Assembly (NCBI GenBank): GCA_013140705.1
Contig: JABFSH010000021.1
Coordinates: forward strand, 1 to 64,000
Source of the DNA: Methylococcaceae bacterium
GTDB taxonomy: Bacteria; Pseudomonadota; Gammaproteobacteria; Methylococcales; Methylomonadaceae
Reading direction: 5' to 3'
DNA length: 64,000 nucleotides
The number at the start of each line of letters is the position of its first letter. Position 1 is the first letter of the stretch. Below are positions 39,498 to 57,163 of the stretch, in pieces. The notes below the pieces were generated by a model. The model was given only the letters and a program-made list of their open reading frames with translations. It had not been told where the DNA came from and did no database searches. A program made the translations under genes and the position numbers.

Positions 39498-39500
39498 GAT

Positions 39501-40226: not shown

Positions 40227-40657
40227 AAATTGACAACGGTTGTTCGTGCATCAAATAAGAGTGTATCGTCAGCATCGCGAATTCTGATTGCGTAGACAGC
40301 ACCATTGGAGATTTTCAGCTCGGCTGAGGCGGTAATGACAAGATCATTGGTTACTTCATCCAGCGTGTCGATATAAAAATGAACGCCTCGTACGGCAGCA
40401 AGAAAGCCGGGCGCCGCTTGTCCAGTTAGCAGACCACCATGGATTGCCGTCGATTGCGCACCGTACTCAATCAGATGCAGCGCCGATAACTGACCATTCA
40501 GCCGCAAGGGATTATCGTGCATTAGATGGGTTCGCGTCCGACAAACAATCTGCTGGCTGGTCCAGGAATCGACGCTATCAATTAAAATCATTCGGCCCGC
40601 ATGCGGAATCAAATAAGCAAACTGATGCTGCGCTAAGGACTTATTGCCGCTCGTCAT
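40223..40657 (-). CDS. ApeP-like 3-hydroxyacyl-ACP dehydratase
   Basis: 144 aa hot-dog protein. PHAGRMILIDSV near the start and SALHLIEYGAQSTAIHGGLL in the helix carry the conserved Glu-Tyr and His residues of ApeP-type dehydratases. It would dehydrate 3-hydroxyacyl-ACP to the trans-enoyl form retained in a polyene chain. It overlaps the acyltransferase gene upstream by 17 bp and fabG downstream by 4 bp. Confidence 0.82.
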   Translation of the reverse strand: MTSGNKSLAQHQFAYLIPHAGRMILIDSVDSWTSQQIVCRTRTHLMHDNPLRLNGQLSALHLIEYGAQSTAIHGGLLTGQAAPGFLAAVRGVHFYIDTLDEVTNDLVITASAELKISNGAVYAIRIRDADDTLLFDARTTVVNL

Positions 40658-41552
40658 CTTGCCAGTAATCGTAAAAATTAAACCAGTTATAAGGCCGGTC
40701 TAGGATATGTTTTTCTAGTATATCAGCGTATTTTTGTGTCCACTGCTGAATCTCTTGCTGCCGGTTCTTTCTGCTCAGCGTTATATGTTCGGCCAGAAGT
40801 TCAAAATGAATTTCATAGTGATTACCCCCGGTATAAATGCCGAAGAATGTTATCAAAGGCACTTTAAGCGACGCCGCTATCAATACGGGTGCAGTGGGCA
40901 ATTGCACCTCTGAGCCCAGCAAAGTGCACCGAACGGTTTTTTCCTTGGCGTCGCCGGAAATACGATCGCCCAGCATACCCACGGCATATCCGCTGTCGAC
41001 AGCTTCTTTTACTTTCAGCAGACTGTTGACCGTATCAGACATGGTCATGATGGTTTCCGCAATAGATGGGTTAAGCGCATGCAGCGCCTGCATGACCATG
41101 GGGGTTTGCCCTTCATGCATCAGGATTTTTATTGGTAAGGGACATTTTTTCAAGGCATAACTGCGCAAGACCTCGAAACTGCCGACATGGCTACCCAGCA
41201 AAATACAGCCCATGCCTGACCGAGAAAATTTCAATGGCGTATTTTCAGCTGGAAAGGTTATGTGTAATTTATCAAACTGTCCGGTAATCAGATATACCCT
41301 ATCCAAAATCGTCGATGCAAAACAGTGAATATGCTTCGCGACATCGAACCAACCGGGAGGCCTGGCAAGAACTCGCTTTAAATAAAGGCGAGAAGCCCTG
41401 CGTTGCAGGCTTGCAAAAATCAGATAATACAGCGTGATCGGATACAAAATGCAACGGGCAACTGGACGTCCCAAGTGCAGGGCGATCCATCGGATTGTTT
41501 TTAGCGCCAGAGGGGTGCTGTATTCTTTCTGTGCTTGCCAGTCGCTACTCAT
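40641..41552 (-). CDS. LpxL/LpxM-family lipid acyltransferase
   Basis: About 303 aa. The ATG at 41552 (MSSDWQAQKE) overlaps the preceding stop by 8 bp; an upstream frame extends to 41594. A hydrophobic N-terminal region (about 30-50) anchors it at the inner membrane. The HTRB/lauroyltransferase core has GSHVGSFEVLRSYAL with the catalytic-type His and, four residues on, Glu (HxxxxE pattern), then GDR further on. Such proteins in aryl-polyene clusters are thought to transfer the finished acyl chain to a lipid or glycan carrier. Confidence 0.82.
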   Translation of the reverse strand: MSSDWQAQKEYSTPLALKTIRWIALHLGRPVARCILYPITLYYLIFASLQRRASRLYLKRVLARPPGWFDVAKHIHCFASTILDRVYLITGQFDKLHITFPAENTPLKFSRSGMGCILLGSHVGSFEVLRSYALKKCPLPIKILMHEGQTPMVMQALHALNPSIAETIMTMSDTVNSLLKVKEAVDSGYAVGMLGDRISGDAKEKTVRCTLLGSEVQLPTAPVLIAASLKVPLITFFGIYTGGNHYEIHFELLAEHITLSRKNRQQEIQQWTQKYADILEKHILDRPYNWFNFYDYWQDDERQ

Positions 41553-41853
41553 GCATACGCTCAATCGTGAAGGTTCCAACCACCAGTTTTTCATCGGCGC
41601 TATCGCATTCGAATTTAATATGTGATGACGATGTCTGTATTAATTTAACCGTAAAAACCGTCCCGGGAAGCAAGGGTTTTAAAAATTTGGCCTGCGACAA
41701 TGATCGAATGGCGCACCAGGGACGCCATTCCATCAGCACAGTACGAACATGATCGAGAATCACGACACCCGGAACAATTGGGTTACCGGGAAAATGCCCC
41801 GCAAGGCTGGGATGCGTTGAATCGATACAAAAGCGTTGAATAAACTCAGACAA
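41545..41853 (-). CDS. ApeI-like hot-dog dehydratase
   Basis: 102 aa. It contains HPSLAGHFPGNPIVPGVVIL, the conserved FabA/FabZ-type active-site segment with the catalytic His in GHFPGNP. It overlaps the AMP-ligase by 8 bp. With the ApeP-like protein it gives the locus two distinct dehydratases, as in known aryl-polyene clusters. Confidence 0.82.
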   Translation of the reverse strand: MSEFIQRFCIDSTHPSLAGHFPGNPIVPGVVILDHVRTVLMEWRPWCAIRSLSQAKFLKPLLPGTVFTVKLIQTSSSHIKFECDSADEKLVVGTFTIERMHE

Positions 41854-43243
41854 GGGATAATCCTTGAATCAAGTCCTGCAGTTCAGACTGATTTACTTTT
41901 CCAGTCGGCTGCCGCGGCAATTCAGCAACAAAATGGATAATGCGCGGCAAAAAGACGGGATCCATCGACTTTTTTAATTCTGTCAGTATGGCCTTTCTGC
42001 TTGATTCACTGACCACAATGGCTGACAGCCGCTCGTTTTTATAATGCACAAACAGTCCATCATCAATACCGTCGATATTATTTAGGATTAGATTCAATTC
42101 GGCCAGTGATGCCCTTTTGCCCGCAATCTTAATCAGGTCATTCGAGCGCCCCACTATGCTGAATGATTGATCGTCATGCAGCAAGAACCGGTCATCCAGT
42201 TTTATCGGAATATGCAAATGCCCGCCACCCACAACAAAATGGCGTCCTTGCTGCCACAACCGAACGCCAGCATAAGTCTGCCATTGGGTTGAAAGCGCGT
42301 TACGTCTGGACGCAAAGGACAACGTTTCGGTGCTGCCAAACAATTCATACAAGGGCGCATTCAATGTTGCTTCAACCTGCTGCGCCAGGCTTGCAGATAT
42401 CGGAGCCGTTGACGACAGCACGCTTTTAATCGCAGGCCAGATCGTTTTAACGCTGGTACAGGCTTTCAAGTGCGCCGGTGTAGAGACCAGAATACCTGGT
42501 CGATCCAGCGACTTCAAACACCGACTGATGTCTTCCGGATAAAAGGGACGTCTGTCATGGATCGATAATCCGGAAAATAATGGCCAGAAAAACGACGTTT
42601 CCAAACCGTACATATGCTGTGCGGGTACTGTTGAAACCAGTGTTGCCGCTTGTCCGATTAGATTAAAATGCTGTAATGCCAGTTCAGCCCCTGCCTGAAA
42701 TTCGCGCCAGCTCTTGGCAATGGCCTTGGGTTTTCCAGTGCTCCCTGAGGTAAATGAAATCGAAATCGTCCGATTGCTGTCGATAAGGGGCAAAGCGCCC
42801 ATGTCAGCATTGAGGCTGTCATTCGAGATCAAGAAAACATTCGGATCGCCAAATGACAAGTCCGCCGATGCCAATGACATTCCCTGTGAATCCACCAACG
42901 CATCGGTGATGCAATAACTGTCGGCATAAGCAGTCAACAGATCGCTTATCGTTCGGGGACTCTGATTCGGGGGCAATAAAGATACTTGATTCCGGAAAAC
43001 AACCGCCAAATAGGCGACGATAAAAAAATACCGGTTTTGGCAGAGATTGATGGCATAGGCTTTATCCGGTAACTGTTTACTGATCGATAAGGCATGGGCA
43101 AATAAATCACGCCGGCTAATCATGTCCTGCGCGGTAACACAAAATACGGTATCCAGATTATCCTGTAAACAGTCCGGAAGATATACGAGAGTTGATTTGG
43201 ATGTAGTCAAAGCAGAGCTGGGAAATTCGAAATGTAAAAGCAA
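41846..43243 (-). CDS. AMP-dependent acyl ligase (ApeH-like)
   Basis: 465 aa from a TTG at 43243; no in-frame ATG occurs before residue 42, so TTG is likely. The adenylation signature is SISFTSGSTGKPKAIAKS, later YELFGSTETLSFASRR and VGRSNDLIKIAGKRASL, with a C-terminal PTGKVNQSEL carrying the catalytic Lys. In aryl-polyene clusters the ligase (ApeH) activates the aryl starter acid onto an ACP. It is first in the six-gene overlapping run ending at the halogenase-like gene. Substrate not determinable. Confidence 0.83.
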   Translation of the reverse strand: MLLHFEFPSSALTTSKSTLVYLPDCLQDNLDTVFCVTAQDMISRRDLFAHALSISKQLPDKAYAINLCQNRYFFIVAYLAVVFRNQVSLLPPNQSPRTISDLLTAYADSYCITDALVDSQGMSLASADLSFGDPNVFLISNDSLNADMGALPLIDSNRTISISFTSGSTGKPKAIAKSWREFQAGAELALQHFNLIGQAATLVSTVPAQHMYGLETSFFWPLFSGLSIHDRRPFYPEDISRCLKSLDRPGILVSTPAHLKACTSVKTIWPAIKSVLSSTAPISASLAQQVEATLNAPLYELFGSTETLSFASRRNALSTQWQTYAGVRLWQQGRHFVVGGGHLHIPIKLDDRFLLHDDQSFSIVGRSNDLIKIAGKRASLAELNLILNNIDGIDDGLFVHYKNERLSAIVVSESSRKAILTELKKSMDPVFLPRIIHFVAELPRQPTGKVNQSELQDLIQGLSLV

Positions 43244-43298
43244 ACGTTAAGTTAACGAGCTCCGGCAATACCGGAGATGGTTAAAAATGAGGTCAAAT

Positions 43299-44069
43299 TC
43301 ATTTATAAGCGGGCAAATTTAGCATGTCATCCAGCCTGACAATCTTATAGTCATTGGCGATCACTTGTTTAATGAAGCCGGGTAAAATGGCCAATGTGGT
43401 TTTATTGGTATCATGAAACAAATAGACAGCGCCTGGCTTTAAGGAATTCATTGCTCTTTTCAGTAATTTTTCTTCATCGCTGATCATCGTATCCAGCGAA
43501 CGGGCACTCCAGCCCACAGAAATATAGTTGCCTAGCCTTATAGCCTTATTAAGCCAGGGATTCGTAACGCCAAATGGCGGCCTAAAAAGCCTGGGTTGCA
43601 AGCCGATCAGGTTTTGCACCACTGCGTCCATACATTTTAAATCTTTAAGCATGGGCTTGCTAAAAAAGAAATCAAACAGCAAATGATGACAGTAGCTATG
43701 ATTGCCAATCAAATGTCCTTGCCGGTGAATTTGTTGAAAGACGCCTTCTCGCGCCAGTATGTTTTTACCGATACAAAAAAATGCCGCTTTTATTTGTTGC
43801 TCTTTCAAAATTTGTAATATTTCCAGTGTATAGTCGCTGGGACCGTCATCGAAACTTAGCGCGCAAACTTTGTCGGTGGTGGCTTTAGCACAGATACTTT
43901 CAGTGAAAAAATTGGCCTCTATATTAAATACGCCATAAAAAAAGATAACAGAATACAGTAAATATAAAACCAGGTAGGCATAAGCAGAAATACCGTAATA
44001 TAAGTCTGAACCGAAGGCTATTATCAGCAATACACTAAAAATTTTGTTGGTATTGGAAAAATTTAACAT
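43299..44069 (-). CDS. Polysaccharide deacetylase (NodB-like)
   Basis: About 256 aa from the ATG at 44069; a TTG at 44093 is possible. One or two N-terminal membrane helices (about 7-50) precede the NodB domain: SFDDGPSDYT (catalytic base and metal Asp), GNHSYCHH (metal His pair), RPPFG and LFHDT. It removes N-acetyl or O-acetyl groups from glycans at the envelope. It lies 55 bp upstream of the AMP-ligase in the same direction. A deacetylase is not a standard aryl-polyene gene, so it may modify the glycan part of the product (inference). Confidence 0.85.
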   Translation of the reverse strand: MLNFSNTNKIFSVLLIIAFGSDLYYGISAYAYLVLYLLYSVIFFYGVFNIEANFFTESICAKATTDKVCALSFDDGPSDYTLEILQILKEQQIKAAFFCIGKNILAREGVFQQIHRQGHLIGNHSYCHHLLFDFFFSKPMLKDLKCMDAVVQNLIGLQPRLFRPPFGVTNPWLNKAIRLGNYISVGWSARSLDTMISDEEKLLKRAMNSLKPGAVYLFHDTNKTTLAILPGFIKQVIANDYKIVRLDDMLNLPAYK

Positions 44070-44429
44070 GTATAAGTTAAAGTGAGTTCTCAATCAATTA
44101 AGCTATCGCTTAGTATTCGGTTAAACTGATGTCCAGATTTGTGAATAAATGCTGGTGACTCAAACGGTTCGTTGAGCGGAGTCGAAGCAAATATCCGGCT
44201 TCCACCCAGCCAACGATATCTTTCGGAAACTATTTAACAACCCTATCCTTGTATTGTAGGGACTCCATCGAATTAAAAACAGCGTTTCTAAGCCATTCAT
44301 GCAAAACTCCAACCCTTTCTCCATACCGGATCATTGGCGTTTCAAAACAGGACTGGTTTATCATGATTCCATGTATTTGCCGTTATTCCCGAAAATCATT
44401 AGCTTGACGACTCTTTTCCCGGATGAGAC
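44070..44429. other. Divergent intergenic region, aryl-polyene-like locus
   Basis: About 360 bp separating the deacetylase (minus) from the PlsC-like gene (plus), so it should contain both promoters. It includes GGTTCGTTGAGCGGAGTCG near 44167-44186, which resembles a short repeat commonly dispersed between bacterial genes. No ORF. Confidence 0.45.
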
Positions 44430-45200
44430 TTGATAAAATACGCATATGAATGGCTGTTACTGGCGCTTGGCTTTGTCTATTGGGCCGTTGCCGGCCTCTT
44501 GATCACCGTTATCGGCAGTTTGCTGTACGGCCTGTTACCCAAAGCCTATTCCCTCATCTGCGGACGATTTATCCTGTCACGAGCATTCCGGTTTTTTATC
44601 GGGTCTTTAAAAATGACCGGCCTGCTCATTCTCGAAGATGACGATTTGAGGAAATTGGCAAGCCGATCCGGGGCCATGATTGTTGCGCCCAATCATATTG
44701 CCTTATGGGACGCGGTCTTTATTATTGCTCAAATTCCCGAACTGATCTGTATTATGAAGGGTTCGATATTAAGAAATCCTTTTCTGGGAGGCGGCGCAAG
44801 GCTGGCCGGCTATATTCCCAATGATTCCGCCTCACAGATGTTATTAGCCGCATCGCATCAATTAAAAAATGCCGCCAGACTGCTCTATTTTCCGGAAGGT
44901 ACACGAACCAAGCCCGATGAAGCATGGATTAATCCCTTGACCAACGGCGTTGCAGTGTTGGCAAAATATTCGTCTGCACCTATCATTCCCATCTATATCC
45001 GCAGCAATTCACGAATTTTTGAAAAAGGCCGGCCCTTGTTTCGTAAACCGACGTTTCCACTAAGAATAAGTTTTACAGTTGGAAAACCAATTCAATTCGT
45101 AAAAGGTGAAGACGTGCAAACGTTCAGCAGGCAACTGGAACAACACTATATTGCCGAATTATCTAAACCGCATCCGTTGCGTAGGATGCCAGCTGAATAA
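44430..45200 (+). CDS. PlsC-type 1-acylglycerol-3-phosphate acyltransferase
   Basis: 256 aa. The start must be TTG at 44430: an in-frame TGA is only 4 nt before it, GGATGAG lies just upstream, and no early in-frame ATG exists. An N-terminal membrane helix (about 8-35) is followed by the PlsC block NHIALWDAVF (the H-x4-D catalytic motif) and FPEGTRTKPDEAW. It transfers acyl groups to lysophospholipid-like acceptors at the inner membrane. Similar acyltransferases accompany aryl-polyene clusters. Confidence 0.85.
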   Translation: MIKYAYEWLLLALGFVYWAVAGLLITVIGSLLYGLLPKAYSLICGRFILSRAFRFFIGSLKMTGLLILEDDDLRKLASRSGAMIVAPNHIALWDAVFIIAQIPELICIMKGSILRNPFLGGGARLAGYIPNDSASQMLLAASHQLKNAARLLYFPEGTRTKPDEAWINPLTNGVAVLAKYSSAPIIPIYIRSNSRIFEKGRPLFRKPTFPLRISFTVGKPIQFVKGEDVQTFSRQLEQHYIAELSKPHPLRRMPAE

Positions 45201-45845
45201 ACGTACAAAAAAAAGCACCGCCTTGTTATTGGCTGATGCTGGGAAGATGCTGTATCGGGGGATAATAAATCATGAATGCAGTTACTTTTTGTCGTGACCA
45301 GCCAAAAGAAAGCATCCAGGTACTTTTTCACTTCTTTGAATATCGAAGAGCCTCTAGTCACTTGGCGCGTCGGACTTATCAGAATAAGTCGTGATATTGT
45401 AAAATGGCAGGGATCTCAACCAATTTACCGGTATTATTTTATGAACCGATTCATGCACTACGATCGTTATCAGCACTATTTGTCGCCGTCAGTGACGAAT
45501 GGTGTCCAAAAGGCCAGGAAGCATTTCAATTTTACCAGCCCTCACGGTAATGACAAAGGCTGGACAGAACAACGAATGGGCATTACATAATTGGATGCCA
45601 TTAAGTCAGTCTTTGATTTGATTGATTAATATACCTGTCTTTAGGCAAAACCAAACATGAATACTTCGGGCTAGCGATTGAGGCAAATAAGTCGATGTGT
45701 GCTGAGATATTTGATTGAATTTTAACCATTCCAGAACTGACTTAAAAAACGACAGGAATTGTTTAATTAGCGCGTTTATAATCAGCGGAACTTGCCATTT
45801 TTCCTCAACTCGAAACCTTATGAAATGCATAGGAGCAGCCACACG
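45201..45845. other. Long intergenic stretch, no gene supported
   Basis: About 645 bp. Two open frames of about 105 codons, one per strand, have composition unlike the neighbouring genes and no ribosome sites, and are not called. The end carries AGGAG 10 nt before the next gene's ATG. Confidence 0.45.
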
Positions 45846-47381
45846 ATGACTGTCGAACTCTTTATCAACTTTGCGGTACTGTTTCTTGGAACCGGAGCCG
45901 CATTTTTCATCGCCTATCGGTCCTTCCAAAAACGCCGAATTCAGTTAGGCGATGAGCCAACGCTGCCTCAGTACTTTATCCGCAGGAGCACTTACTGGAT
46001 AGGGATCGCATCATACTGCACGTTTATGGCAGCGCTATACGGGTTACTTATCTGGCGGTGGCTACCTTTGGAACCGCTTGTGACGCTCATCATGAAGAAC
46101 CTCCGCTCCGGGGAATTAGTAAATCTTCTCAATGGCCTGGATGGACACACAATCATGCCTTTGATTACCGCCGGACTGTTTCTATTTTTTATCGCCTGGG
46201 AAAGCAAGTTTAACCCCTTGCTGATTTTGAGGGACAGCATCCATGACGCTTTCGCAATACCGACAAAGGCGGTAGAGGTCTATCATGCGCTAATTACATC
46301 AAGTTTATCCAAAGTCGACGATAACTTAAAAACACAAATTGCCAATCGCCTGCTGGTACAGAGCGTTGACCCCGGTGATTTCGAAAAATCCAGCGCCACG
46401 GTCGAGTATAAATGGGCTCATAATTGTCTTCTTTTTGACCAGATACAGAGTTATGCCAACCAATCGTCCTTTCGTCGTTTTTTCAACGAACCGTCACTGA
46501 AATGGGGGGAAATCTGTATTTCCTACAATGCGATGTCGGAAAAAGTTGCCGTCTGGAAAGAGGCGGAACCGCATTACACCAAGACGGTCAACCTGTTAAA
46601 GGAACTGGACCACCTCACCGGTCTGCTCTGCCGCCTACTCGCCTCCCTGGTCGTGTTCGGTAGCGCAAGCGAGAATGATATATGGGTAGCCGTGAAGCAA
46701 CTCGGCGGAAATGCCCACGAAGCCCGCCTGAAACACACCTATAAATATGTACTGCTTTTCACGGCTGCGACCGCTATCGGAGTCATATTGGGTCGAGAGA
46801 TTTCGGTCTCGCTTCACAATGCTTTTCTATTTCCGGATAAACCGCTGGCGCATTTTAATTACACGACGCTCCGTTGGGTCGCCTATGCCATTCCGATGTA
46901 TGTCCTTCCAATAGCGCTCGTCTTTATTTTACGAACGCTCGCCTTCAGGCATCAACGAGAGCAATCCGATCTGAGCTATGGGTTCTACATGACAATGATG
47001 ATAACGGGGTTTATTATCAGCACCACAGCATCAACGCTTATTCTCGAGTTAACCTTCTACCATAGGGATAATTTCAGTTTTCCGGGAAGCTTCATACAAC
47101 ATATGCGCTGGGGAATTCTGCCGGCACTCATGTGCGGTTTTGTGGCCTTTCGAATGGACATGCCGGTGAGCGAATCTGAAACGTTAGGCAGCCTGATTCT
47201 GGCTGCTACGATGCGATTTCTTGGGTGGGGATCGGTCGCCGTCATTTTCATGCTTTATGCTACAGACGACCTAACCATCCAGGAAACAAATCTGCGTTTC
47301 ACTCTTGTCGGCACGGCTTTCTTCGTGATCGGCCTCCTGGGAGCGTCTGCCCGTTTCAAAACGGCGAGGTCAGAAGATTAG
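45846..47381 (+). CDS. Multi-pass membrane protein of unknown function
   Basis: About 511 aa from the ATG at 45846 (AGGAG 10 nt upstream). About nine predicted membrane helices: three near the N-terminus, a central soluble part of about 170 residues (about 130-300), then six more. The soluble part has the segments KWAHNCLLFDQIQSYANQSS and LKELDHLTGLLCRLLASLVV. I do not recognise the family. It lies between the PlsC-like and GT2 genes but at long spacing from both, so operon membership is doubtful; it may be an unrelated insertion into the lipid locus. Confidence 0.8.
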   Translation: MTVELFINFAVLFLGTGAAFFIAYRSFQKRRIQLGDEPTLPQYFIRRSTYWIGIASYCTFMAALYGLLIWRWLPLEPLVTLIMKNLRSGELVNLLNGLDGHTIMPLITAGLFLFFIAWESKFNPLLILRDSIHDAFAIPTKAVEVYHALITSSLSKVDDNLKTQIANRLLVQSVDPGDFEKSSATVEYKWAHNCLLFDQIQSYANQSSFRRFFNEPSLKWGEICISYNAMSEKVAVWKEAEPHYTKTVNLLKELDHLTGLLCRLLASLVVFGSASENDIWVAVKQLGGNAHEARLKHTYKYVLLFTAATAIGVILGREISVSLHNAFLFPDKPLAHFNYTTLRWVAYAIPMYVLPIALVFILRTLAFRHQREQSDLSYGFYMTMMITGFIISTTASTLILELTFYHRDNFSFPGSFIQHMRWGILPALMCGFVAFRMDMPVSESETLGSLILAATMRFLGWGSVAVIFMLYATDDLTIQETNLRFTLVGTAFFVIGLLGASARFKTARSED

Positions 47382-47762
47382 CTATTTCATTCCTGACCAA
47401 GTATTAAAGGACAAAGCTGGGCATTGACACCCGAAAGTAGCGCACACACGGGGTTAGCAATGAAACATCGGTCTAGTCATTTGCTTAATTCCTTCGTCAT
47501 TTCGGCAGGGATTCACGCCGTGTTTTGCAGGCCAGTCAGGAAACAACCTGTAATAAGCTAACAGTCATTATAAACAATATGCTTGTTAACTCAGGGTTAA
47601 CAGCAATCAAAAAGGGGTTCGTACTACCCCTGCTCACGGGCTAGGCTGGATTGGCCAGAATTCTACTAGCCGATATCAGAAACTGTTGAGACGAATTTTG
47701 AAGTTGTTCGATCAAATCCGGGGTTTTACAAAAATTGCCTATAATTATCATTACCAAAATCA
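47382..47762. other. Intergenic stretch, nothing recognised
   Basis: About 380 bp upstream of the GT2 gene, with no ORF and no obvious repeat. It presumably holds the promoter of the GT2-ACP-ligase run. Confidence 0.4.
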
Positions 47763-48521
47763 ATGACCGACAAACTATCAAAAAACCATCTCATCCTGGT
47801 GCCCAGCTATAATACGGGGCCTATTTTAGCAAAAACCGTTCAGGAAATTCTGCGACACTGGCATCCGGTATGGGTAATCATTGACGGCAGCAATGATGGC
47901 AGTGATGCACTTTTGCATCTTCTTCAGACGCAATTTCCAGATGCCTTACAGGTGATCAGGCTGGAAAAAAATGTTGGCAAGGGCGCGGCCATTTTAGTTG
48001 GCATAACGCTCGCCCAGCAACAAGGCTACACGCATGTGCTAACCATGGATGCCGATCATCAACATCCGGCTGAATCGATTCAGAAATTTATGCAGGCCTC
48101 AATAGAATCGCCTCATGCCATGATTCTGGGTGAGCCGATTTTCGATGCCTCGGCACCCGCACTACGAGTTCAGGGGCGTCGGATATCCAATAGTATTGTC
48201 ACCCTGGAAACTTTAGCCTGGGGTATTCATGATTCGTTGTTTGGCATGCGCGTTTATCCCATTGAACCTTTGCGCCAGGTCATAGAATCAACCCGCTGGG
48301 CTCGGCGCTTTGATTTCGAGCCGGAGGTTGCCGTCAAACTATCATGGCTGGGCATACCCGTCATCAATTTGCCAACGCCTGTGCGTTACCTGACAAAACA
48401 GGAAGGCGGTGTCAGTCATTTCCGCTATGTAAGGGATAACACACTGCTCACCTGGATGCATACACGCTTGATCGCAGGCTTTATTGTGAGACTGCCGACA
48501 TTGATTGCTCGAATGCTGTAG
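47763..48521 (+). CDS. Family 2 glycosyltransferase (ApeJ-like)
   Basis: 252 aa. GT2 landmarks: LVPSYNTGPILAKTVQEI, VIIDGSNDGSDAL, KNVGKGAAILVGI, and the DxD-type TMDADHQHP. There are no membrane helices except a weakly hydrophobic C-terminus. It transfers a sugar from an NDP donor or dolichol-type carrier. Stand-alone GT2 enzymes of this size occur in aryl-polyene and related lipid clusters. It is followed 144 bp later by the ACP gene. Confidence 0.85.
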   Translation: MTDKLSKNHLILVPSYNTGPILAKTVQEILRHWHPVWVIIDGSNDGSDALLHLLQTQFPDALQVIRLEKNVGKGAAILVGITLAQQQGYTHVLTMDADHQHPAESIQKFMQASIESPHAMILGEPIFDASAPALRVQGRRISNSIVTLETLAWGIHDSLFGMRVYPIEPLRQVIESTRWARRFDFEPEVAVKLSWLGIPVINLPTPVRYLTKQEGGVSHFRYVRDNTLLTWMHTRLIAGFIVRLPTLIARML

Positions 48522-48665: not shown

Positions 48666-48902
48666 ATGAAACAAAAAATCCGATCCTTTATTTTTGAAGA
48701 AATAATTTTTATCCCAGACCCTGATAAATTTTCCGATGACGACAATTTAATCGAAGCAGGGCTTGATAGCATGGGCATTATGAGGCTGGTAATGTTTATC
48801 GAAGATCGTTTCGGCGTGACTTTGCCGGATGCGGAGATCGACCCTGATAACCTACATTCCCTGAATGCACTGGAACAATGGATACTTCGACACAAAAAAT
48901 GA
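48666..48902 (+). CDS. Free-standing acyl/peptidyl carrier protein
   Basis: 78 aa from the ATG at 48666. The phosphopantetheine site is GLDSMGIMRL with the Ser in the usual place, followed by the acidic helix FIEDRFGVTLPDAEI. It would carry the substrate loaded by the adenylation enzyme downstream, or the growing polyene. It overlaps the start of the condensation-like gene (ATGA), so the two are translationally coupled. Confidence 0.88.
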   Translation: MKQKIRSFIFEEIIFIPDPDKFSDDDNLIEAGLDSMGIMRLVMFIEDRFGVTLPDAEIDPDNLHSLNALEQWILRHKK

Positions 48903-50233
48903 TGGCAAAGCAAACCAGTGAAATGATTCAGCCCCTGAATGTGGCTGACTATTTTACACTGGCAATGGATGATGAAATTCGTCGAAACCAACTGCCCGGC
49001 GGGTTGTGTGGCTTTGCGCTGCAATTGAACGGGCGGCCTGACATCAACAAACTCGCCAGACGCATTGATGAATTCATCACCCGCTTTCCGACCGCATCAG
49101 CCAGCTTGCAACAACGTGGCAAACAATTTTACTGGTGCAGAAGGCCTAAACCCGAACAAATTTTATTTCAGCATCATTGTCCGGAAACGGATAGCGATAC
49201 GGACTTTCAACGAGCAACTATTGTTCAATTGTTTCATCGGCAGGAATCCAGAGAGACTATTGCCCCCATAGAATTTCATCTCATCCTCGGTCAACAAACG
49301 CACTGTTTCCTGATTCGATGGCTACATCCCTTTTGTGATGCAAAAGGGGTTGAATTAATCTTCCGATATCTGTGCACAGATGATCAGGCGCAGCGCGAGC
49401 TTTTCGACACCCCCACAATGGACGCGCTGGTTAATACGCAACTCGGCAAATTTAGATGGTGGCAAAAAATCCATTTGTTCTACAAAGCAAATCGCTATAT
49501 CAACCAGCTGGATCACTTTCAAAGTATTCAGCATGGCCAGTTTCAACTCGCGTCGGACAAACTCAATTTTCTGCCCCATCAATTCAGCCCGGAAGAAACC
49601 GACCTCATTGCGCAACAGGCCCGGCAACACTGTGGATTAACAGGCACCAGTCAGTATTACATCGGCTGCTTTATGCGCGCCTTGCATCAAATGGAACCCG
49701 ATCAGGCAGGCGACGCCTATTGCGTACCCTATGCCTTTAGTTTACGAAAACAGAATGCACTAAGTCCGATGCTGGGCAATCATATAGGTACTTTATTTGC
49801 CCAGGCCCCCAAAGCGCTACTGGCTGGCAGGGAGCAGCTTTTTAGCCATCTGAAACAGCAAAATGCCCAAGCCATCCGGCAACAACTGGATTATGCTTTC
49901 TTACCGGTCATGTGGGCAGCCAGTTGGCTATCGCTGGAAAAATATGGGCGAGAACTGCGCAAATCCTATCAACATGACAGTGAACGCAGTTCCTTCTGGT
50001 TTTCGGATATCGGTCAGTTCAACTTTGATCAGCACAGCTTCTTTAATACCAGTATCACCGGCTTGTTTCATCTCAGTCAGATGTCCAATCCGCCAGGCTT
50101 GGCCTTACTTTGTTGCCAGTACCGGAAACAATTAATTTTGAGTTTTAATTTTATTGAGCCTGTGTTCAGTAAATCCTGGATCAGCCAATTGCAACAAAAA
50201 ATGGCGCAGGAATTACTGGGGCAAACGGAATAG
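48899..50233 (+). CDS. Condensation-domain-like acyltransferase
   Basis: About 444 aa from the ATG at 48899, overlapping the ACP stop; an in-frame ATG at 48878 is possible. It contains an HxxxD active-site motif, HPFCDAKG, at about residues 143-147, in the position expected for condensation, wax-ester-synthase or CoA-acyltransferase superfamily folds. The later SFWFSDIGQFNFDQ and GNHIGTLFA segments also fit that superfamily. It would form an amide or ester between the ACP-bound acyl group and an acceptor. The first of the two His usual in HHxxxDG is replaced (WLHPFCDAKG). Substrates unknown. Confidence 0.75.
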   Translation: MMAKQTSEMIQPLNVADYFTLAMDDEIRRNQLPGGLCGFALQLNGRPDINKLARRIDEFITRFPTASASLQQRGKQFYWCRRPKPEQILFQHHCPETDSDTDFQRATIVQLFHRQESRETIAPIEFHLILGQQTHCFLIRWLHPFCDAKGVELIFRYLCTDDQAQRELFDTPTMDALVNTQLGKFRWWQKIHLFYKANRYINQLDHFQSIQHGQFQLASDKLNFLPHQFSPEETDLIAQQARQHCGLTGTSQYYIGCFMRALHQMEPDQAGDAYCVPYAFSLRKQNALSPMLGNHIGTLFAQAPKALLAGREQLFSHLKQQNAQAIRQQLDYAFLPVMWAASWLSLEKYGRELRKSYQHDSERSSFWFSDIGQFNFDQHSFFNTSITGLFHLSQMSNPPGLALLCCQYRKQLILSFNFIEPVFSKSWISQLQQKMAQELLGQTE

Positions 50234-50245
50234 TTGTCCCATTCC

Positions 50246-51691
50246 ATGAATTTAATCTCAGGTTTTATCAAGCAGTGCCTTGCATCTCCCGAACGACTGG
50301 CCTTCACAGACGAAGAAAAGCAATTAACTTATGAGCAAGTGGCACAAACTTGCCAGCCATTCACGGATTTTTTGAACATGCACCACTGTGCCGGGCAATG
50401 CATAGCGCTAGCCATTGAGCGTGGCATTGATGCGGCTCAAGCCATTGTAAGTATTCTGACTGCGGGAGCCTGTTATTTACCGCTGGATATTAAAAATCCG
50501 GCCAGCCGTTTGAACTACATCATCGATGATGCCCAACCTCGTTATGTGGCGGGGCATGGCGCGTGTCCGGACTGGCTGGCCAATCAGGAGCTATGGCTGG
50601 ATCTGCACCAACTGCAACCTACCCTATCCTTTTCGGCGGAACCCAATGACACGGAGCCGGAAGCTTTGGCCGCCATTCTTTATACCTCCGGTTCAACGGG
50701 CACGCCCAAAGGCGTAGCACTCAGCCATCGGGCGACGCTGAGTTTCGCTGAATGGGCGCGGTCAACATTTGCAATCGCCCCTGAAGACCGCATCGCCAGT
50801 CTCGCGCCGTTTCACTTCGATCTGTCCGTATTCGACCTGTTCAGCAGCCTGTCTGCCGGCGCCAGTGTGCACTTCATGCCCGCCGCTTTATCCTTGGCCC
50901 CTAGCAAATTAACAGCCTGGTTAAATCAAAATGCCATTACTTGCTGGTACACCGTACCCTCTTTACTGTCTTTTATTGCCCTGAAAGGCGCTCTGACAAC
51001 TACGCCATTAAGCAACCTGAAAACCATCCTGTTCGCTGGCGAAGTGTTTCCTACACCGCAATTGATCAAACTGGTCGAGCAGTTGCCAACAACGGAATTT
51101 TTTAACCTGTACGGGCCAACCGAAACCAATGTCTGCAGCTATTGGCCGGTGGATCGATTCCGCTTGCGCGCCAATCAGGCAATTCCGATCGGCATACCGG
51201 CATGCAATGCCCTGCTCAAGATAGATGAAGCAACCGGAGAGTTGCTGGTACAGAGCCCGAACAATTTTTCAGGCTATTGGCAACAAGGCAAACTGGATCG
51301 TTCGCCACTTCGAAATGGCTGGCACCATACCGGCGATAAAGTATCGCGCAATGAACAGAACGAATATTGTTATCACGGACGCCTGGACAGAATGCTCAAA
51401 TGCTCGGGCTATCGCGTCGAACCCGCCGAAATCGAAGCGACGATCAATCGACTGCCCGAGGTTATGCACTGCGCCGTGCTGGGTATCAGTGACCCCACCA
51501 GTGGTCAACGCCCGGTAGCCGCAGTAGTTTTAAAAACCGGCTGCATATTAGCCGACATCATCAAACCCGTGAAAGAAACATTGCCATCTTACATGCAACC
51601 GGCCAAGTTTATCGTGCTGGAAACATTGCCTGTTATGTCAAATGGCAAAACGGATTATCAAGCATTACAGGCAATATTCCAGTCGTATTAG
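50246..51691 (+). CDS. Free-standing adenylation enzyme (NRPS-type AMP ligase)
   Basis: About 481 aa from the ATG at 50246 (a TTG at 50234 is 12 nt upstream). Adenylation core motifs: AAILYTSGSTGTPKGVALSH, FHFDLSVFDLFSS, NLYGPTETNVCSYW, YHGRLDRMLKCSGYRVEPAE and the C-terminal Lys of MSNGKTDYQAL. The Asp of FDLS, which contacts amino-acid amines in NRPS enzymes, is present, so an amino acid is a likely substrate. With the ACP and condensation-like gene it forms a dissociated single NRPS-like module. It is followed by a 380-bp regulatory gap and then the peptide precursor gene. Confidence 0.82.
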   Translation: MNLISGFIKQCLASPERLAFTDEEKQLTYEQVAQTCQPFTDFLNMHHCAGQCIALAIERGIDAAQAIVSILTAGACYLPLDIKNPASRLNYIIDDAQPRYVAGHGACPDWLANQELWLDLHQLQPTLSFSAEPNDTEPEALAAILYTSGSTGTPKGVALSHRATLSFAEWARSTFAIAPEDRIASLAPFHFDLSVFDLFSSLSAGASVHFMPAALSLAPSKLTAWLNQNAITCWYTVPSLLSFIALKGALTTTPLSNLKTILFAGEVFPTPQLIKLVEQLPTTEFFNLYGPTETNVCSYWPVDRFRLRANQAIPIGIPACNALLKIDEATGELLVQSPNNFSGYWQQGKLDRSPLRNGWHHTGDKVSRNEQNEYCYHGRLDRMLKCSGYRVEPAEIEATINRLPEVMHCAVLGISDPTSGQRPVAAVVLKTGCILADIIKPVKETLPSYMQPAKFIVLETLPVMSNGKTDYQALQAIFQSY

Positions 51692-51880
51692 CCATCAACT
51701 CGACACCGCCCCTGATCCCCGCACACGCACTATGGATCTGGTAAAAAATAACTTCCCGAATTCCTACTTTAAGGGAAGGCCCGATAGTTCCAGCAAAAAG
51801 ATTGTCATCAAAGATAATGGTCATGTTTTCAAGGAAACCTTCGCTGCATTTTTTTCCGTTAGCATACCCCCGTCAAAATA

Positions 51881-52064: not shown

Positions 52065-52072
52065 AATTGATC

Positions 52073-52306
52073 ATGAATCAAAAACAAAGCGGTTCTGAAA
52101 AATTACAGCTTCAATGTGGCAAAACCGGCGTGCGCTCGATAGAAGATTTCCAACAGGTGGAAGAACTGCTTGAAGCCAGTGGTGGCTTGGGTGTAAGCGT
52201 TGTGCCCCTTTGGTGGAAATATGGCACGCCCGCAATATTCAATGTAGGTAATGTGCTGAACCCGGCAATCAATCCAGCACAAATCTCGCAAACATTGTTT
52301 AGATAA
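52073..52306 (+). CDS. RiPP precursor peptide with double-glycine leader
   Basis: 77 aa. A charged leader contains SIEDFQQVEELLEASGG, an acidic helix ending in Gly37-Gly38, as cleaved by C39 peptidases. The core is about 39 residues: it begins LGVSVVP, has an aromatic cluster LWWKYG at 46-51, then FNVGNVLNP and NPAQISQTLF, and is rich in Asn, Pro, Gly and Val. No Cys is present in the core, so disulfide or lanthionine chemistry is excluded; the only Cys is in the leader (Cys15). The next gene, 13 bp downstream, is a radical SAM enzyme, and a peptidase-ABC exporter follows. I do not recognise the peptide family. Confidence 0.78.
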   Translation: MNQKQSGSEKLQLQCGKTGVRSIEDFQQVEELLEASGGLGVSVVPLWWKYGTPAIFNVGNVLNPAINPAQISQTLFR

Positions 52307-52319
52307 AGAGGAATAGGCG

Positions 52320-53378
52320 ATGAACAAGAAACAACCGTTAAGATCAACCGGAAATACCCGAGTCATTCAGATTCATCCAAGCCGTTTGTGCAATCTGAGT
52401 TGTCTTCACTGTTATTCTTCGTCATCGCCTCGGGAGCGCGGTGCCTTAAGTGCCGCGCTACTTTGCAATGCACTGACTGATATGGCCGCTGAAGGTTACG
52501 ATTATTTATGTATTTCCGGCGGTGAACCGTTACTGTACAAACCGCTCCCAGACTTGCTGACCCATGCAAAAAACCTTGGCCTTAAAACGGCGATTGCCAG
52601 TAATGGCATGTTGCTGGACGAACAACACCTTACTGTACTCAAAAATGTGGTTGATACCATTGCCATTAGTCTGGATGGTATGCCGGAATCGCACAACCGA
52701 ATGCGAAACTCCAGTTTGGCTTTTGCCAGAATGGCCGCCAATTTGGACAACCTACGCAAGTCCGGCATTAATTTTGGGTTTATATTCACGCTAACCCAAT
52801 ACAATCTGAATGAATTGGACTGGGTGGTCCGCTTCGCATTGGAACAGGAAGCCAAGCTATTACAAATTCACCCTCTGGAAGAAAGCGGCTTTGCCACAGG
52901 TAATTTGCCGGAAGAACGACCGGATCGCATCGAATCGGCCTATGCCTATCTCCTGTGCGAAACACTCAAGGAACAACTAAAAGATCAGCTCTATATACAA
53001 TTGGATTTTGCCAGTCGTCAGGCTTTGACAGCGTATCCCGATATAGTCTATGCCGGCGACACTCTGCCGGAGACTGACGCTCCTCTGGCCGATTGTCTGG
53101 ACTCACTGGTCATTGAACCGGATGGCAGCGTGCTACCTTTGCAATACGGATTTTCAAAGCACTATAGTCTGGGAAATCTGCATTCATCTGATTTTAAACA
53201 ATTGGCTGACGATTGGCGTCGAGAACGAATGAGCGACTTTTATGCCTTGTGCCGCAGCGTGCATCAAAAAGTCACGACACCGGGTAATCCGATGATTTTT
53301 AATTGGGATGAGACATTGAGAACTGCCTCTCATCACAAACCAGCTCAACACCAAGCGATTGCGGTCGGATGGCAGTAA
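52320..53378 (+). CDS. Radical SAM peptide-modifying enzyme
   Basis: 352 aa. The ATG at 52320 follows AGAGGA by 7 nt. The [4Fe-4S] motif is CNLSCLHC (Cys24, Cys28, Cys31), and the glycine-rich SAM site is ISGGEPLL. The C-terminal third resembles the twitch/SPASM region (ADCLDSLVIEPDGSVLPLQY, later FYALCRSVH), but the Cys expected after the 'dG.v.p' turn is absent, so a second cluster is partial or missing. Adjacent to the precursor, it probably makes a carbon-carbon, ether or thioether bond in the core, for example at the Trp-Trp-Lys-Tyr region. The reaction is not determinable from sequence. Confidence 0.82.
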   Translation: MNKKQPLRSTGNTRVIQIHPSRLCNLSCLHCYSSSSPRERGALSAALLCNALTDMAAEGYDYLCISGGEPLLYKPLPDLLTHAKNLGLKTAIASNGMLLDEQHLTVLKNVVDTIAISLDGMPESHNRMRNSSLAFARMAANLDNLRKSGINFGFIFTLTQYNLNELDWVVRFALEQEAKLLQIHPLEESGFATGNLPEERPDRIESAYAYLLCETLKEQLKDQLYIQLDFASRQALTAYPDIVYAGDTLPETDAPLADCLDSLVIEPDGSVLPLQYGFSKHYSLGNLHSSDFKQLADDWRRERMSDFYALCRSVHQKVTTPGNPMIFNWDETLRTASHHKPAQHQAIAVGWQ

Positions 53379-53615
53379 GCAGCAACGCAATGACCTGATC
53401 CATAAACATAGAAAAATCATTTGATCCACGAAAACCAAAAGTAGGCGCCTGTAGCACAACACAAAAGCAGAGAATATTCAACGAGACACCAAGTAGTAGA
53501 TCGCCTCTCAAAGTGTGAAGAACCGGGTAATACAACATGCTGATTTTTCGTGTTTTTCGTGGACTAATAGCGGTTTTCAGGATAAATCCAACTCACACCT
53601 ATCACAACAACAATT

Positions 53616-55817
53616 ATGGCCAAATTTGTCTTTCAAAAACAAATGGACGCAATGGATTGCGGTCCTACCTGTTTACATATGGTGGCACGTCATTACGGGC
53701 GGATTTTGCCCATGGATGAATTAAGAGAAAAATGCAGTTTGACTCGTCTGGGAGTCACACTCGGCGGAATTGCCGATGCTGCCGAAAATTTCCATTTGAA
53801 AACCGTTGCCATCCGGGCCTCGATGCACACCTTGCAGGAAGAAGTCCTGCTACCCTGTATTGCACATTGGCAGCAGAAACATTTTGTTGTCGTTCATGGT
53901 ATCAAAAACAACAGCGTCTTTATTGCCGATCCCGCTTATGGCCTGATCAAATATAGTCGAAAGGAATTCATGGCCGGCTGGCTGAACATGGTCAATCCCG
54001 ATGAAACAGCCGAGGGCATTTTATTGTTGGTCGATACAACACCTGAATTCTATGCCGATCCGGACGTGCAACAAAAAAAGCCAAGAGGACTGGGATTTTT
54101 ATGGCCTTATTTTCGGCCTTACCATTCTCTTTTCATGCAGCTTTTTTTAGGCCTTCTGGTAGGCAGCCTGATTTTACTGGCCTTCCCTTTTCTGACACAA
54201 GCCATGGTCGACTATGGCATCAACTATCACAACCTGGATTTCGTCTATGTGTTGCTGGCAGCGCAACTGACACTGTTTTTGTCACAAACTTCCGTTGATT
54301 TGTTACGCAGCTGGATTCTGTTGCATATCGGCGCAAGAATCAATATCGCGATCATTTCCGATTTTTTAATCAAGCTGATAAAACTGCCCGTCTCGTTCTT
54401 TGATACCAAAATGATTGGCGATCTGTTGCAACGCATTCAGGATCATCATCGCGTTGAAGAATTTCTCTCCTCATCGACTCTGACCACCTTGTTTGCACTG
54501 GTCAACTTTATCGTCTTTGGCGCAGCGCTGGCCTGGTATAATCAGACGATCCTGATGATTTTCGTGAGTAGTATCGCGATGTATGTCACCTGGGTTTTGC
54601 TGTTTATGAAAAAACGGGCAACTCTCGATTATCAGCGTTTTGACCAGGCGTCAAAAACGCAAAGCAGCATGGTGCAACTGATACACGGCATGCAGGAAAT
54701 CAAACTCAACAACTCCGAGCGCCGACGCCGCTGGGAATGGGAACGCATCCAGGTCAGATTATTCAAGGTGTCGGTGAAAAGTCTCGCGCTTTACCAATAT
54801 CAAATGACCGGAGCCAACTTTATTAATGAGCTCAAAAATATCCTGATCTCCTTTTATTGCGCAAAATCCGTCATTGATGGCCACATGACCCTGGGCATGA
54901 TGCTGTCAGTCCAATACATCATTGGTCAGCTGAACGCGCCAATTTCAAATTTCGTCAGTTTTCTACAATCCATGCAGGATGCCCGTATCAGCCTCGGGCG
55001 ACTGGCTGAAATTCATGATCAGAAAAACGAGACGATACCCCAGCCAATGACCCATTTGCTGAGCCAGGATAAAACCATAGTCATAGAAAATGACCTGTGC
55101 TTTCAATACGGACGGAAAAAATCGCCTAAGGTATTGGAAAATCTGAATCTGGTAATTCCTGAAGGCAAAGTGACCGCCATTGTCGGCGCTAGCGGCAGCG
55201 GGAAAACCACGTTACTGAAGCTCTTGATGCGCTTTTATCCACCGACACAGGGCAAAATGCGGGTCGGCAATATTCAATTGAATGACATTGACATGGCCCT
55301 GTGGCGGCAAAAATGCGGCGTGGTCATGCAAAATGGCTTTATTTTTCATGACACGGTTCTGAGGAATATCACCGAATCAGAATCGGAGGGTTTAATAGAT
55401 AAAAACAAACTTAACCAGGCCATTGCAATAGCCAATTTAGGTGAATTAATCGATACACTCCCGAATGGTTTGAATACCGAGATTGGCGCCAACGGCATAT
55501 CATTGAGCGGCGGACAAAATCAGCGCATTCTAATTGCACGAGCCGTTTACAAAAATCCGGATTATCTGTTTTTTGATGAAGCGACCAGCGCTCTGGATGC
55601 AAAAAACGAGCGGGTCATTATGGAAAACCTGCAGGCCTTCTATCAGGGCCGCACCGTTGTTGTGATCGCCCATCGCTTAAGTACGGTAAAAAATGCCGAC
55701 CAGATCGTTGTACTCGATAGGGGCAAAGTGGTTGAAACCGGTAATCACGAACAATTGACCACATTAAAAGGTGTCTACTACAACCTGGTAAGCAATCAAC
55801 TGGAGTTGGGACAATAG
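53616..55817 (+). CDS. C39 peptidase-containing ABC transporter (PCAT)
   Basis: 733 aa. N-terminal C39 peptidase: MDAMDCGPTCL with catalytic Cys15, then His89 in HFVVVHGI and Asp105 in IADPA. A six-helix membrane domain (about 155-460) follows, then the ATPase: Walker A GASGSGKTT at 524-532, signature LSGGQ at 630-634, and Walker B YLFFDEATSALD. It cleaves a peptide after Gly-Gly and exports the mature product; its obvious partner is the 77-aa precursor. It lies 237 bp after the radical SAM gene and 2 bp before the adaptor gene. Confidence 0.92.
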   Translation: MAKFVFQKQMDAMDCGPTCLHMVARHYGRILPMDELREKCSLTRLGVTLGGIADAAENFHLKTVAIRASMHTLQEEVLLPCIAHWQQKHFVVVHGIKNNSVFIADPAYGLIKYSRKEFMAGWLNMVNPDETAEGILLLVDTTPEFYADPDVQQKKPRGLGFLWPYFRPYHSLFMQLFLGLLVGSLILLAFPFLTQAMVDYGINYHNLDFVYVLLAAQLTLFLSQTSVDLLRSWILLHIGARINIAIISDFLIKLIKLPVSFFDTKMIGDLLQRIQDHHRVEEFLSSSTLTTLFALVNFIVFGAALAWYNQTILMIFVSSIAMYVTWVLLFMKKRATLDYQRFDQASKTQSSMVQLIHGMQEIKLNNSERRRRWEWERIQVRLFKVSVKSLALYQYQMTGANFINELKNILISFYCAKSVIDGHMTLGMMLSVQYIIGQLNAPISNFVSFLQSMQDARISLGRLAEIHDQKNETIPQPMTHLLSQDKTIVIENDLCFQYGRKKSPKVLENLNLVIPEGKVTAIVGASGSGKTTLLKLLMRFYPPTQGKMRVGNIQLNDIDMALWRQKCGVVMQNGFIFHDTVLRNITESESEGLIDKNKLNQAIAIANLGELIDTLPNGLNTEIGANGISLSGGQNQRILIARAVYKNPDYLFFDEATSALDAKNERVIMENLQAFYQGRTVVVIAHRLSTVKNADQIVVLDRGKVVETGNHEQLTTLKGVYYNLVSNQLELGQ

Positions 55818-55819
55818 CC

Positions 55820-57163
55820 ATGCCGCATCTTAGCCCCTATGCAAATCCAGAAACCTTGGCACAGCCGACTTATGACAAGCTGGAAATCCTGGGCGATTAC
55901 AGTATGTACACCCTGGAATTGCTTGGAAAACCACCCGCCTGGATTTTGCGCTGGGGCGGCACCGTGATTTTGACGCTTATCATGGCCATTATTTTATTGT
56001 CCTGGATTGTGAAATATCCAGACATCGTGTCTGCCAAAGTCACCGTCACCACGCCCATTCCTCCAGCCAGTCTGGTGGCGCGCCAAAGCGGGAAGCTACA
56101 TTGGCTGAAAAGTAACAACCATCAGCAGGTCAAAAAAAATGACTTGCTTGCAGTTATTGAAAGTTCCGCCAACTTCAATGATATAGTGCAACTGAAAGAA
56201 TGGTTAAAGAACTATAGCCCTCATCAAGTAGATGTTGCATACCTGGCAACCCTTCCGCAGAATCTTAAACTGGGCGACATTCAGAATCAATTTGCACAAT
56301 TCCAGAAACAGCTCAATGAAATGCTGTTTTTTTTAACTTCAAACCCGCTTGCAAAGAAAATAGTCCTCAATCGCAAAAAACAGCAGCAACTCGAGGCGAT
56401 GTTGAACAAATTTCAACAACAGGCAACCATCCTTCGGAGTGAAAATACCCTACTGGATAAAAACCTGCAACGCTTTCAACAACTGCAAACCAAACAACTG
56501 ATCTCGGCCAGCAACGTCGATGAAAAACAGATAAGTCTGCTCAACAATCGTCGGCAGCAAGAACAACTCAGCGTGGAGGCGTCAAGAACACAAATCGAAC
56601 TGACCAACTTAAGCACCGAATTGAATGAATTGAACCAGGTTGATGCAAACAAACGCGAATCCTTCAAACTGAATCTGGCTGAAGCCTACCAGGCCCTGTT
56701 GACAAGTTTAAGTCTGTGGGAAAAAAACTATCTGCTGACATCTCCTATTGAGGGCCGTTTGGTGCTGTCCAAATTCTGGGGAGAATTCCAGGTCGTCAAT
56801 GTCGGCGAAGAAGTCGTCACAATCGTACCTTTTGAAAAACAGCCCATACTGGCCAAAATGAAAATGCCTCTAGAAAATTCCGGCAAGGTTAAAACAGGCC
56901 AGAAACTTTTAATTAAGCTGGCAGGTTATCCGTATCAGGAATATGGCCAGATTGTCAGCAAGATAAACTCCATTTCGCTAGTGCCGAGAGAGAATATGTA
57001 CACGGTCGACGCCATTCTGCCTAACCCGCTGGTCACCAGCTATAAGAAAACACTGAGCTTCCACCAGGAAATGCAGGGGCAGGCTGAAATCGTGACTGAA
57101 GATATTCGATTACTGGAAAGAGTCTTTTACCAGTTGCGGAAGGTATTGAAAAAAGCGGAATAG
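55820..57163 (+). CDS. HlyD-family secretion adaptor
   Basis: 447 aa. A single N-terminal membrane helix (about 49-66) leads to a barrel-sandwich domain split by a long coiled coil (about 165-280, rich in Gln, Leu and Asn), then the beta-barrel (PIEGRLVLSKFWGEFQVVNVGEEV). It connects the PCAT exporter to an outer-membrane TolC-type channel, which is not encoded here. The last gene of the peptide operon; a terminator-like hairpin is 150 bp downstream. Confidence 0.9.
   Translation: MPHLSPYANPETLAQPTYDKLEILGDYSMYTLELLGKPPAWILRWGGTVILTLIMAIILLSWIVKYPDIVSAKVTVTTPIPPASLVARQSGKLHWLKSNNHQQVKKNDLLAVIESSANFNDIVQLKEWLKNYSPHQVDVAYLATLPQNLKLGDIQNQFAQFQKQLNEMLFFLTSNPLAKKIVLNRKKQQQLEAMLNKFQQQATILRSENTLLDKNLQRFQQLQTKQLISASNVDEKQISLLNNRRQQEQLSVEASRTQIELTNLSTELNELNQVDANKRESFKLNLAEAYQALLTSLSLWEKNYLLTSPIEGRLVLSKFWGEFQVVNVGEEVVTIVPFEKQPILAKMKMPLENSGKVKTGQKLLIKLAGYPYQEYGQIVSKINSISLVPRENMYTVDAILPNPLVTSYKKTLSFHQEMQGQAEIVTEDIRLLERVFYQLRKVLKKAE

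Follow-up and report, generated by a model that had tools for sequence, protein, structure and literature searches.

A candidate proline-loading and transfer cassette associated with aryl-polyene-type genes in a Methylococcaceae genome

The question raised by this locus is which amino acid is handled by a stand-alone carrier protein, a condensation-like protein and an adenylation enzyme, and to what that amino acid would be attached. The trio lies in a 64,000-nucleotide stretch (the window) on contig C12 (JABFSH010000021.1) of a 4.28 Mb Methylococcaceae genome (GCA_013140705.1; G000), next to aryl-polyene-type lipid genes and to genes for a ribosomally synthesized and post-translationally modified peptide (RiPP); the named relatives found belong to the Methylococcales. 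The original prediction described the trio as a dissociated nonribosomal peptide synthetase (NRPS)-like module that may act on the lipid or on something linked with the RiPP. We propose instead, with about even confidence, that it serves the loading of proline and the transfer step within a pyrrole-2-carboxyl cassette of an aryl-polyene-type pigment pathway, with the pyrrole as an acyl cap.

The trio and its predicted substrate

The three genes are as follows.

48666 to 48902, + strand: stand-alone peptidyl carrier protein (PCP), PltL-like, predicted to carry prolyl/pyrrolyl (PF00550, 2my5, PltL, LDSxG)
48899 to 50233, + strand: stand-alone putative condensation/CAT-fold acyltransferase with HPFCDAKG (the C protein; conserved motif, Foldseek on a low-confidence model, no Pfam match)
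50234 to 51691, + strand: stand-alone adenylation enzyme (A), predicted to be L-proline-specific, DLFYLALVCK (PF00501, PF13193, pocket comparison)

As originally described, these are separate polypeptides, all encoded on one strand, and Pfam searches match the carrier to PF00550 (E 4.2e-11) and A to PF00501 (E 5.9e-60) and PF13193 (E 4.1e-16). The open reading frame (ORF) of the C protein is listed from 48878, and the start common to the relatives is ATG 48899 or 48902; with ATG 48899, the C gene has the predicted ATGA overlap with the stop of the carrier gene. The real start of A may be ATG 50246, and its amine-binding Asp (FDLS) is present at residue 196, as claimed. The phosphopantetheine site of the carrier reads LDSMG, and LDSxG is kept in 54 of the 56 carrier members of the loci read. 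Homologues of the C protein were identified in 51 of 151 genomes of the family, 42 of which belong to the close class (distant and fragmentary matches having been dropped). The conservation of the trio is far beyond chance.

Among solved structures, the closest stand-alone relatives of A are the chains 6o6e_B and 7thn_B, each bearing the name L-proline--[L-prolyl-carrier protein] ligase; 6o6e_B is the proline ligase that partners PltL. Read at the usual GrsA pocket positions, the pocket code of A is D-L-F-Y-L-A-L-V-C-K, of which the first nine positions agree with 6o6e_B (D-L-L-Y-L-A-L-V-C) in eight cases and with 7thn_B (D-L-F-Y-I-A-W-V-C) in seven, in a comparison drawn from a single alignment. 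Among the 48 A proteins of the loci read, DLFY is invariant, as are the pocket residues A, V and K, and the exact window code is found in 31. A literature search on a proline pocket string matched no paper. The best solved relatives of the carrier are the peptidyl carrier protein 2my5 (6.2e-09; also 2my6) and PltL (4.8e-08); a predicted proline pocket and a PltL-type stand-alone carrier are both features of a pyrrole-2-carboxyl (prolyl-PCP) cassette. The specificity prediction that had been suggested as a check thus returned a proline-type pocket, and based on these comparisons A probably handles proline destined for conversion to pyrrole. The earlier proposal of amino acid attachment therefore stands as regards amino-acid adenylation, with the correction that the substrate is predicted to be proline, which in the relatives would be oxidised to pyrrole before transfer.

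Other carrier-dependent systems were considered and rejected. A scores 232 bits against a curated cut-off of 476 for DltA-type D-alanylation (D-alanyl carrier ligase), and the carrier falls below the cut-offs for both OlsHI-type ornithine lipid and cispentacin carriers; a literature search on OlsH matched no paper.

The unusual part of the cassette is the predicted dedicated C-fold transferase, a protein lacking both A and carrier domains. Its HPxxDxxG motif (with the HxxxD core) is kept in 56 of 56 C members, and the best Foldseek matches of its structure model all belong to the condensation/CAT superfamily (E 4.6e-07), from which only the superfamily was taken, given a predicted local distance difference test (pLDDT) score of 43.5. 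The window protein has no NCBIfam match and no Pfam match at E 0.1, including the NRPS condensation family PF00668, to which a distant protein, C2, scores 6e-4, below the curated cut-off. The description "condensation-like" is supported by the core motif and the superfamily list, and is without a counterpart in Pfam.

C2 and the window C protein share only 19-24% identity. The C2 gene belongs to a parallel cassette (ACP2, C2, an oxidoreductase dependent on flavin adenine dinucleotide (FAD) and a FadD-like ligase) that follows a halogenase-like gene in aryl-polyene clusters of other methanotrophs (L070:7813-14966; L066-L075, L129). The position of this cassette beside the same KS-DH-KR-KS-FAD core as the pyrrole cassette is as expected if related transferases attach different acids.

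The prolyl-carrier dehydrogenase

In the relatives, A is followed immediately by a gene (cluster k5) for a prolyl-carrier dehydrogenase, and the order carrier-C-A-dehydrogenase is conserved. The k5 dehydrogenase matches a solved prolyl-ACP dehydrogenase (PDB 4irn, 3e-65); against the PigA and RedW models it reaches 5e-82 and 6e-79, respectively, below their cut-offs. Our profile survey covered the window and 56 fetched stretches, of which 55 (all but L129, which has the diverged C2 class and was left out) hold a close C protein; L065 is a second locus of G130, and the 55 loci are those fetched, drawn from among the C-positive genomes. All four genes (carrier, C, A and dehydrogenase) were found in 43 of these 55 loci. 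Across the 151 family genomes, A was identified in 43, the dehydrogenase in 44 and the close C protein in 42, with A and the dehydrogenase coinciding in 41 genomes, and A and C likewise in 41. The dehydrogenase count refers to matches at E < 1e-130 only, by which G000 and G024 were dropped from 46 matching genomes.

G000 encodes a PigA/RedW-type dehydrogenase on another contig (G000:C24:5128-6276, equivalent to L080:5128-6276), with matches to the PigA model at 7.1e-128 (426.9 bits; cut-off 500) and to 4irn at 3.2e-111. At E 1e-40 this protein has no second match among the other 150 genomes, and the lack of an obvious counterpart there suggests, from sequence, that it was separately acquired. 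In G024 (L099:3482-6044, contig G024:C21), dehydrogenase, adenylation and carrier-like genes adjoin one another (35, 32 and 39% identity to the window set, respectively), with no recognised C protein; this is perhaps another proline-type cassette.

Association with aryl-polyene genes

The original prediction placed ape-like genes near the trio, and these are present at 38160-45200 and 47763-48521.

38160 to 39497, - strand: FAD-dependent halogenase-like protein with WMWLIP, in the aryl-polyene-type set (Trp_halogenase 1.7e-26; 5buk 8.8e-51; PltA 1.1e-43)
39501 to 40226, - strand: ketoreductase (KR), ApeQ/FlxB-like (NF053542 FlxB 3e-84; FabG 2.3e-104)
40223 to 40657, - strand: hot-dog dehydratase (DH), ApeP-like (PF22817 ApeP-like 0.024, below cut-off; homologues in 20 other loci in a first survey)
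40641 to 41594, - strand: lipid A-type acyltransferase, acyltransferase part of ApeJ (PF03279 1.6e-10)
41846 to 43243, - strand: ApeH-like aryl acid ligase (PF00501 2.3e-23; TIGR02372 4-coumarate ligase 1.8e-25, below cut-off)
43299 to 44093, - strand: polysaccharide deacetylase family protein, recurrent near the set (PF01522 7.9e-26; homologue near the set in 5 other loci in the first survey)
44430 to 45200, + strand: ApeD-like acyltransferase (PF01553 2.1e-13; homologues in aryl-polyene clusters of G088, G022 and G049)
47763 to 48521, + strand: family 2 glycosyltransferase, glycosyltransferase part of ApeJ (PF00535 8.9e-19)

The best solved relative of the halogenase-like protein is the FADH2-dependent halogenase 5buk, although it is nearly as similar to other halogenases. 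A homologue of the glycosyltransferase is found directly upstream of the carrier gene in two relatives (L036 and L040; 67-68% identity). The aryl-polyene pathway of G000 is split: one part lies at 38160-48521 in the window, and the rest at G000:C24:57614-66135, which encodes two FAD enzymes, a chain-length factor (CLF), a ketosynthase (KS), an exporter, LolA and an acyl carrier protein (ACP). Taken across both parts (window 39501-43243 and C24:57614-66135), G000 possesses the KS with CLF, KR, DH, ApeH-like ligase and exporter of an aryl-polyene pathway.

Two further features of the window were noted. The 529-aa membrane protein encoded at 45792-47381 belongs to no Pfam family; G009 encodes a homologue (3053691-3055226), recognised from its initial residues, some 10 kb past the set. 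The ORFs at 16827-18722 and 30174-32051 (631 and 625 aa) have a near-identical pattern of opposite-strand ORFs; the latter encodes DXP synthase, and the window may carry two copies of this gene.

In the relatives, protein clustering places the trio adjoining or diverging from KS, DH, KR and KS genes with a halogenase-like FAD gene in many cases, and beside CLF, exporter and LolA genes in other genomes. Using thresholds chosen after the scores were known (aryl-polyene KS > 400 bits, CLF > 150, exporter > 300), a KS, CLF or exporter was identified within the fetched stretch of 32 of the 55 other trio loci. Genome content gives a similar association: the aryl-polyene exporter is encoded in 50 of the 151 genomes overall, including 40 of the 43 A-positive genomes and 10 of the 108 A-negative ones, being absent from the remaining 98 (Fisher 1.6e-23, not corrected for kinship). 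Seven of the 10 exporter-positive, A-negative genomes (G006, G029, G049, G097, G098, G114 and G150) have a distant C homologue. The proposed link between the trio and polyene-lipid genes is supported by both comparisons.

The same survey argues against a role for the trio in the neighbouring RiPP, the other partner originally suggested. The window has a self-contained RiPP cassette at 52067-57163, comprising a precursor (with a GG site and then a Trp-Trp motif in most members), a radical S-adenosylmethionine (SAM) enzyme, an ATP-binding cassette (ABC) transporter with a C39 peptidase, and HlyD. Adjacency favours a partnership, the precursor ORF starting 376 bases after A; against this, the precursor, radical-SAM and HlyD genes were found at none of the 55 other trio loci, the cassette with its conserved precursor occurs away from the trio in six other family genomes (G098, G054, G031, G004, G090 and G110), and only two of the seven genomes with the radical-SAM gene, among the 151, have the A gene (Fisher p = 1.0). 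With co-localisation and co-occurrence both negative, we reject a trio acting on this radical-SAM RiPP as highly improbable; the RiPP genes are beside the trio by coincidence. The co-occurrence comparison, which had been suggested for both neighbours, thus came out positive for the ape-like genes and negative for the RiPP precursor. Measured against the refuting condition set originally, the trio stands apart from the RiPP at all 55 other loci, and at 23 of them an aryl-polyene KS, CLF or exporter is likewise missing from the fetched stretch.

The C profile matches 63 of the 201 genomes of the order. In a class-wide sample it matches 3 of 369 (G000, G009 and G307); G307 encodes proteins sharing 88-96% identity with those of Methylococcales and may be contaminated, although its locus (L113, filed in another family of the class) was kept among the 55. 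In a phylum-wide sample, matches were found in 7 of 398 genomes, namely G000 and six genomes of a single family, f212, outside the class, all six of which encode the four-gene set. G807 and G662 have that set in one locus together with an ACP, an ApeH-like ligase, a glycosyl- and an acyltransferase, LolA, an exporter, KS, CLF, DH and KR, so that in these genomes the trio is part of a complete single aryl-polyene locus. The gene after the dehydrogenase in G662 encodes a protein closest to the flavin-dependent halogenase 5bva (7e-65; PltA 1e-33). The substrates of 5bva and 5buk are carrier-bound pyrroles.

Proposed pathway and known systems

Based on these gene inventories, A would adenylate L-proline and load it onto the carrier protein, and the prolyl-carrier dehydrogenase would oxidise the prolyl group to pyrrole-2-carboxyl-S-carrier. 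These two steps match the established route to pyrrole. The C-fold protein would then pass the acyl group from its dedicated carrier to a nucleophilic site of the aryl-polyene head or of the lipid/sugar anchor, forming an acyl cap, and the halogenase-like enzyme may halogenate the pyrrole. The predicted proline loading and oxidation steps are well supported by the sequence matches, whereas we infer the acceptor of the C-fold transfer and the halogenation.

Several observations weigh against this proposal. A search of the 64 kb identified no dehydrogenase gene or remnant in the window; its one notable match (51247-51717, E 2.8e-07) was produced by just one query, an ORF of about 520 aa into which the end of A probably extends; the G000 dehydrogenase on C24 lies about 51 kb from the other half of the aryl-polyene pathway, beside unrelated genes. 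The dehydrogenase is found without an A match in three genomes (G007, G025 and G057; L088, L089 and L090), which suggests an orphan remnant or a re-used enzyme there. Three A-positive genomes (G033, G044 and G135) have no exporter match, and 23 of the 55 loci have no aryl-polyene KS, CLF or exporter in the fetched stretch, in some cases due to contig ends.

These 23 loci, which have the C protein but none of those three aryl-polyene genes in the fetched stretch, are also consistent with a separate small pyrrole product, possibly halogenated, that is not joined to the polyene, the genes being only co-located or co-regulated. Many unrelated pathways use pyrrole cassettes, and the halogenase-type gene after the dehydrogenase in G662 would suit such a product. 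However, the exporter match is missing in so few of the A-positive genomes (3 of 43), and the cassette is nested in complete aryl-polyene clusters of distant lineages; we regard a separate product as improbable.

Alternatively, the C-fold protein could move pyrrole-2-carboxyl to the ketosynthase or to a second ACP, such that pyrrole serves as the starter of a pyrrolyl polyene made instead of, or besides, an aryl polyene. The same KS-DH-KR-KS-FAD core is found beside either the pyrrole cassette or the carrier/C2/FAD/ligase cassette, as if starters were swapped; ligase k26 has no match at E 1e-40 in 18 of the 43 A-positive genomes; and in G022 clustering identified no AMP-type ligase besides A in 39 kb around the set (ORF 1071-2606 being unclassified). 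This ligase count misleads, however, since the 18 include G088, whose cluster encodes a diverged fusion of a ligase with ApeI as well as a tyrosine-ammonia-lyase-like protein; we therefore no longer took the lack of an ApeH-like ligase to prove a pyrrole starter. For the alternative ligase Lig2, the highest-scoring matches are fatty-acid ligases, and this speaks more for a cap. An ApeH-like ligase accompanies the cassette in G807 and G662, and G088 retains its lyase-like gene and ligase fusion, so that the polyene probably has the usual aryl starter. With these starter genes present, pyrrole more probably caps the head group or the anchor than serves as the starter, and the starter alternative is in our view rather unlikely.

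If pyrrole is such a cap, then methanotrophs and a second proteobacterial family (f212) may make an undescribed class of envelope pigment, in which aryl polyenes are conjugated with a possibly halogenated pyrrole. A free-standing condensation-fold enzyme would dock with a dedicated pyrrolyl carrier and acylate the pigment, and in other methanotrophs the parallel carrier/C2/FAD/ligase cassette would equip this core with another acid. We put this wider proposal forward tentatively. Few bacterial pigments are as widespread as the aryl polyenes, of whose final forms, attached to the membrane, the picture is still incomplete; a conserved pyrrole cassette that brings its own transferase into aryl-polyene clusters predicts specific structures, would give the condensation-fold superfamily a possible new role, and implies that the yellow membrane pigment of these methane-eating bacteria may carry an unexpected pyrrole group. 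Methylotuvimicrobium buryatense 5G (L006) carries the set, which makes the prediction testable. Keronopsins are pyrrole polyenes. No report of a pyrrole cassette combined with an aryl polyene was found in the literature searched, the coverage of which excludes most subscription journals. In PMC11964084, aryl-polyene clusters are reported to dominate in Methylococcaceae, and a count of terms there gave neither pyrrole nor adenylation.

Compared with the NRPS C-A-PCP module, the trio has the same three predicted functions, a putative C-type fold (in the low-confidence model) and the HxxxD core, but consists of three separate proteins in the order carrier-C-A. Known pyrrole cassettes include those of pyoluteorin (PltF/PltL/PltE) and prodigiosin (PigI/PigG/PigA), RedM/O/W and Bmp4/1/3. 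By sequence matches, the set of the window and its relatives resembles pyrrole-2-carboxyl cassettes in its stand-alone proline ligase, stand-alone carrier and prolyl-carrier dehydrogenase; it differs in the extra condensation-fold transferase between the carrier and A genes, in its aryl-polyene surroundings and, in G000, in the location of the dehydrogenase on another contig. With aryl polyene/flexirubin clusters (ApeA-R; gene roles as given in PMC8253772 and PMC8358021), it shares KS, CLF, DH, KR, the ApeH-like ligase, ApeD/ApeJ-like acyl- and glycosyltransferases, LolA and an RND/MMPL exporter; for Escherichia coli, PMC8253772 gives the proposal that ApeD and ApeJ attach the polyene acid to lipid in later steps. 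Unlike those clusters, the pathway described here has an extra pyrrole cassette and halogenase-like FAD enzymes, and in G000 is split over two contigs.

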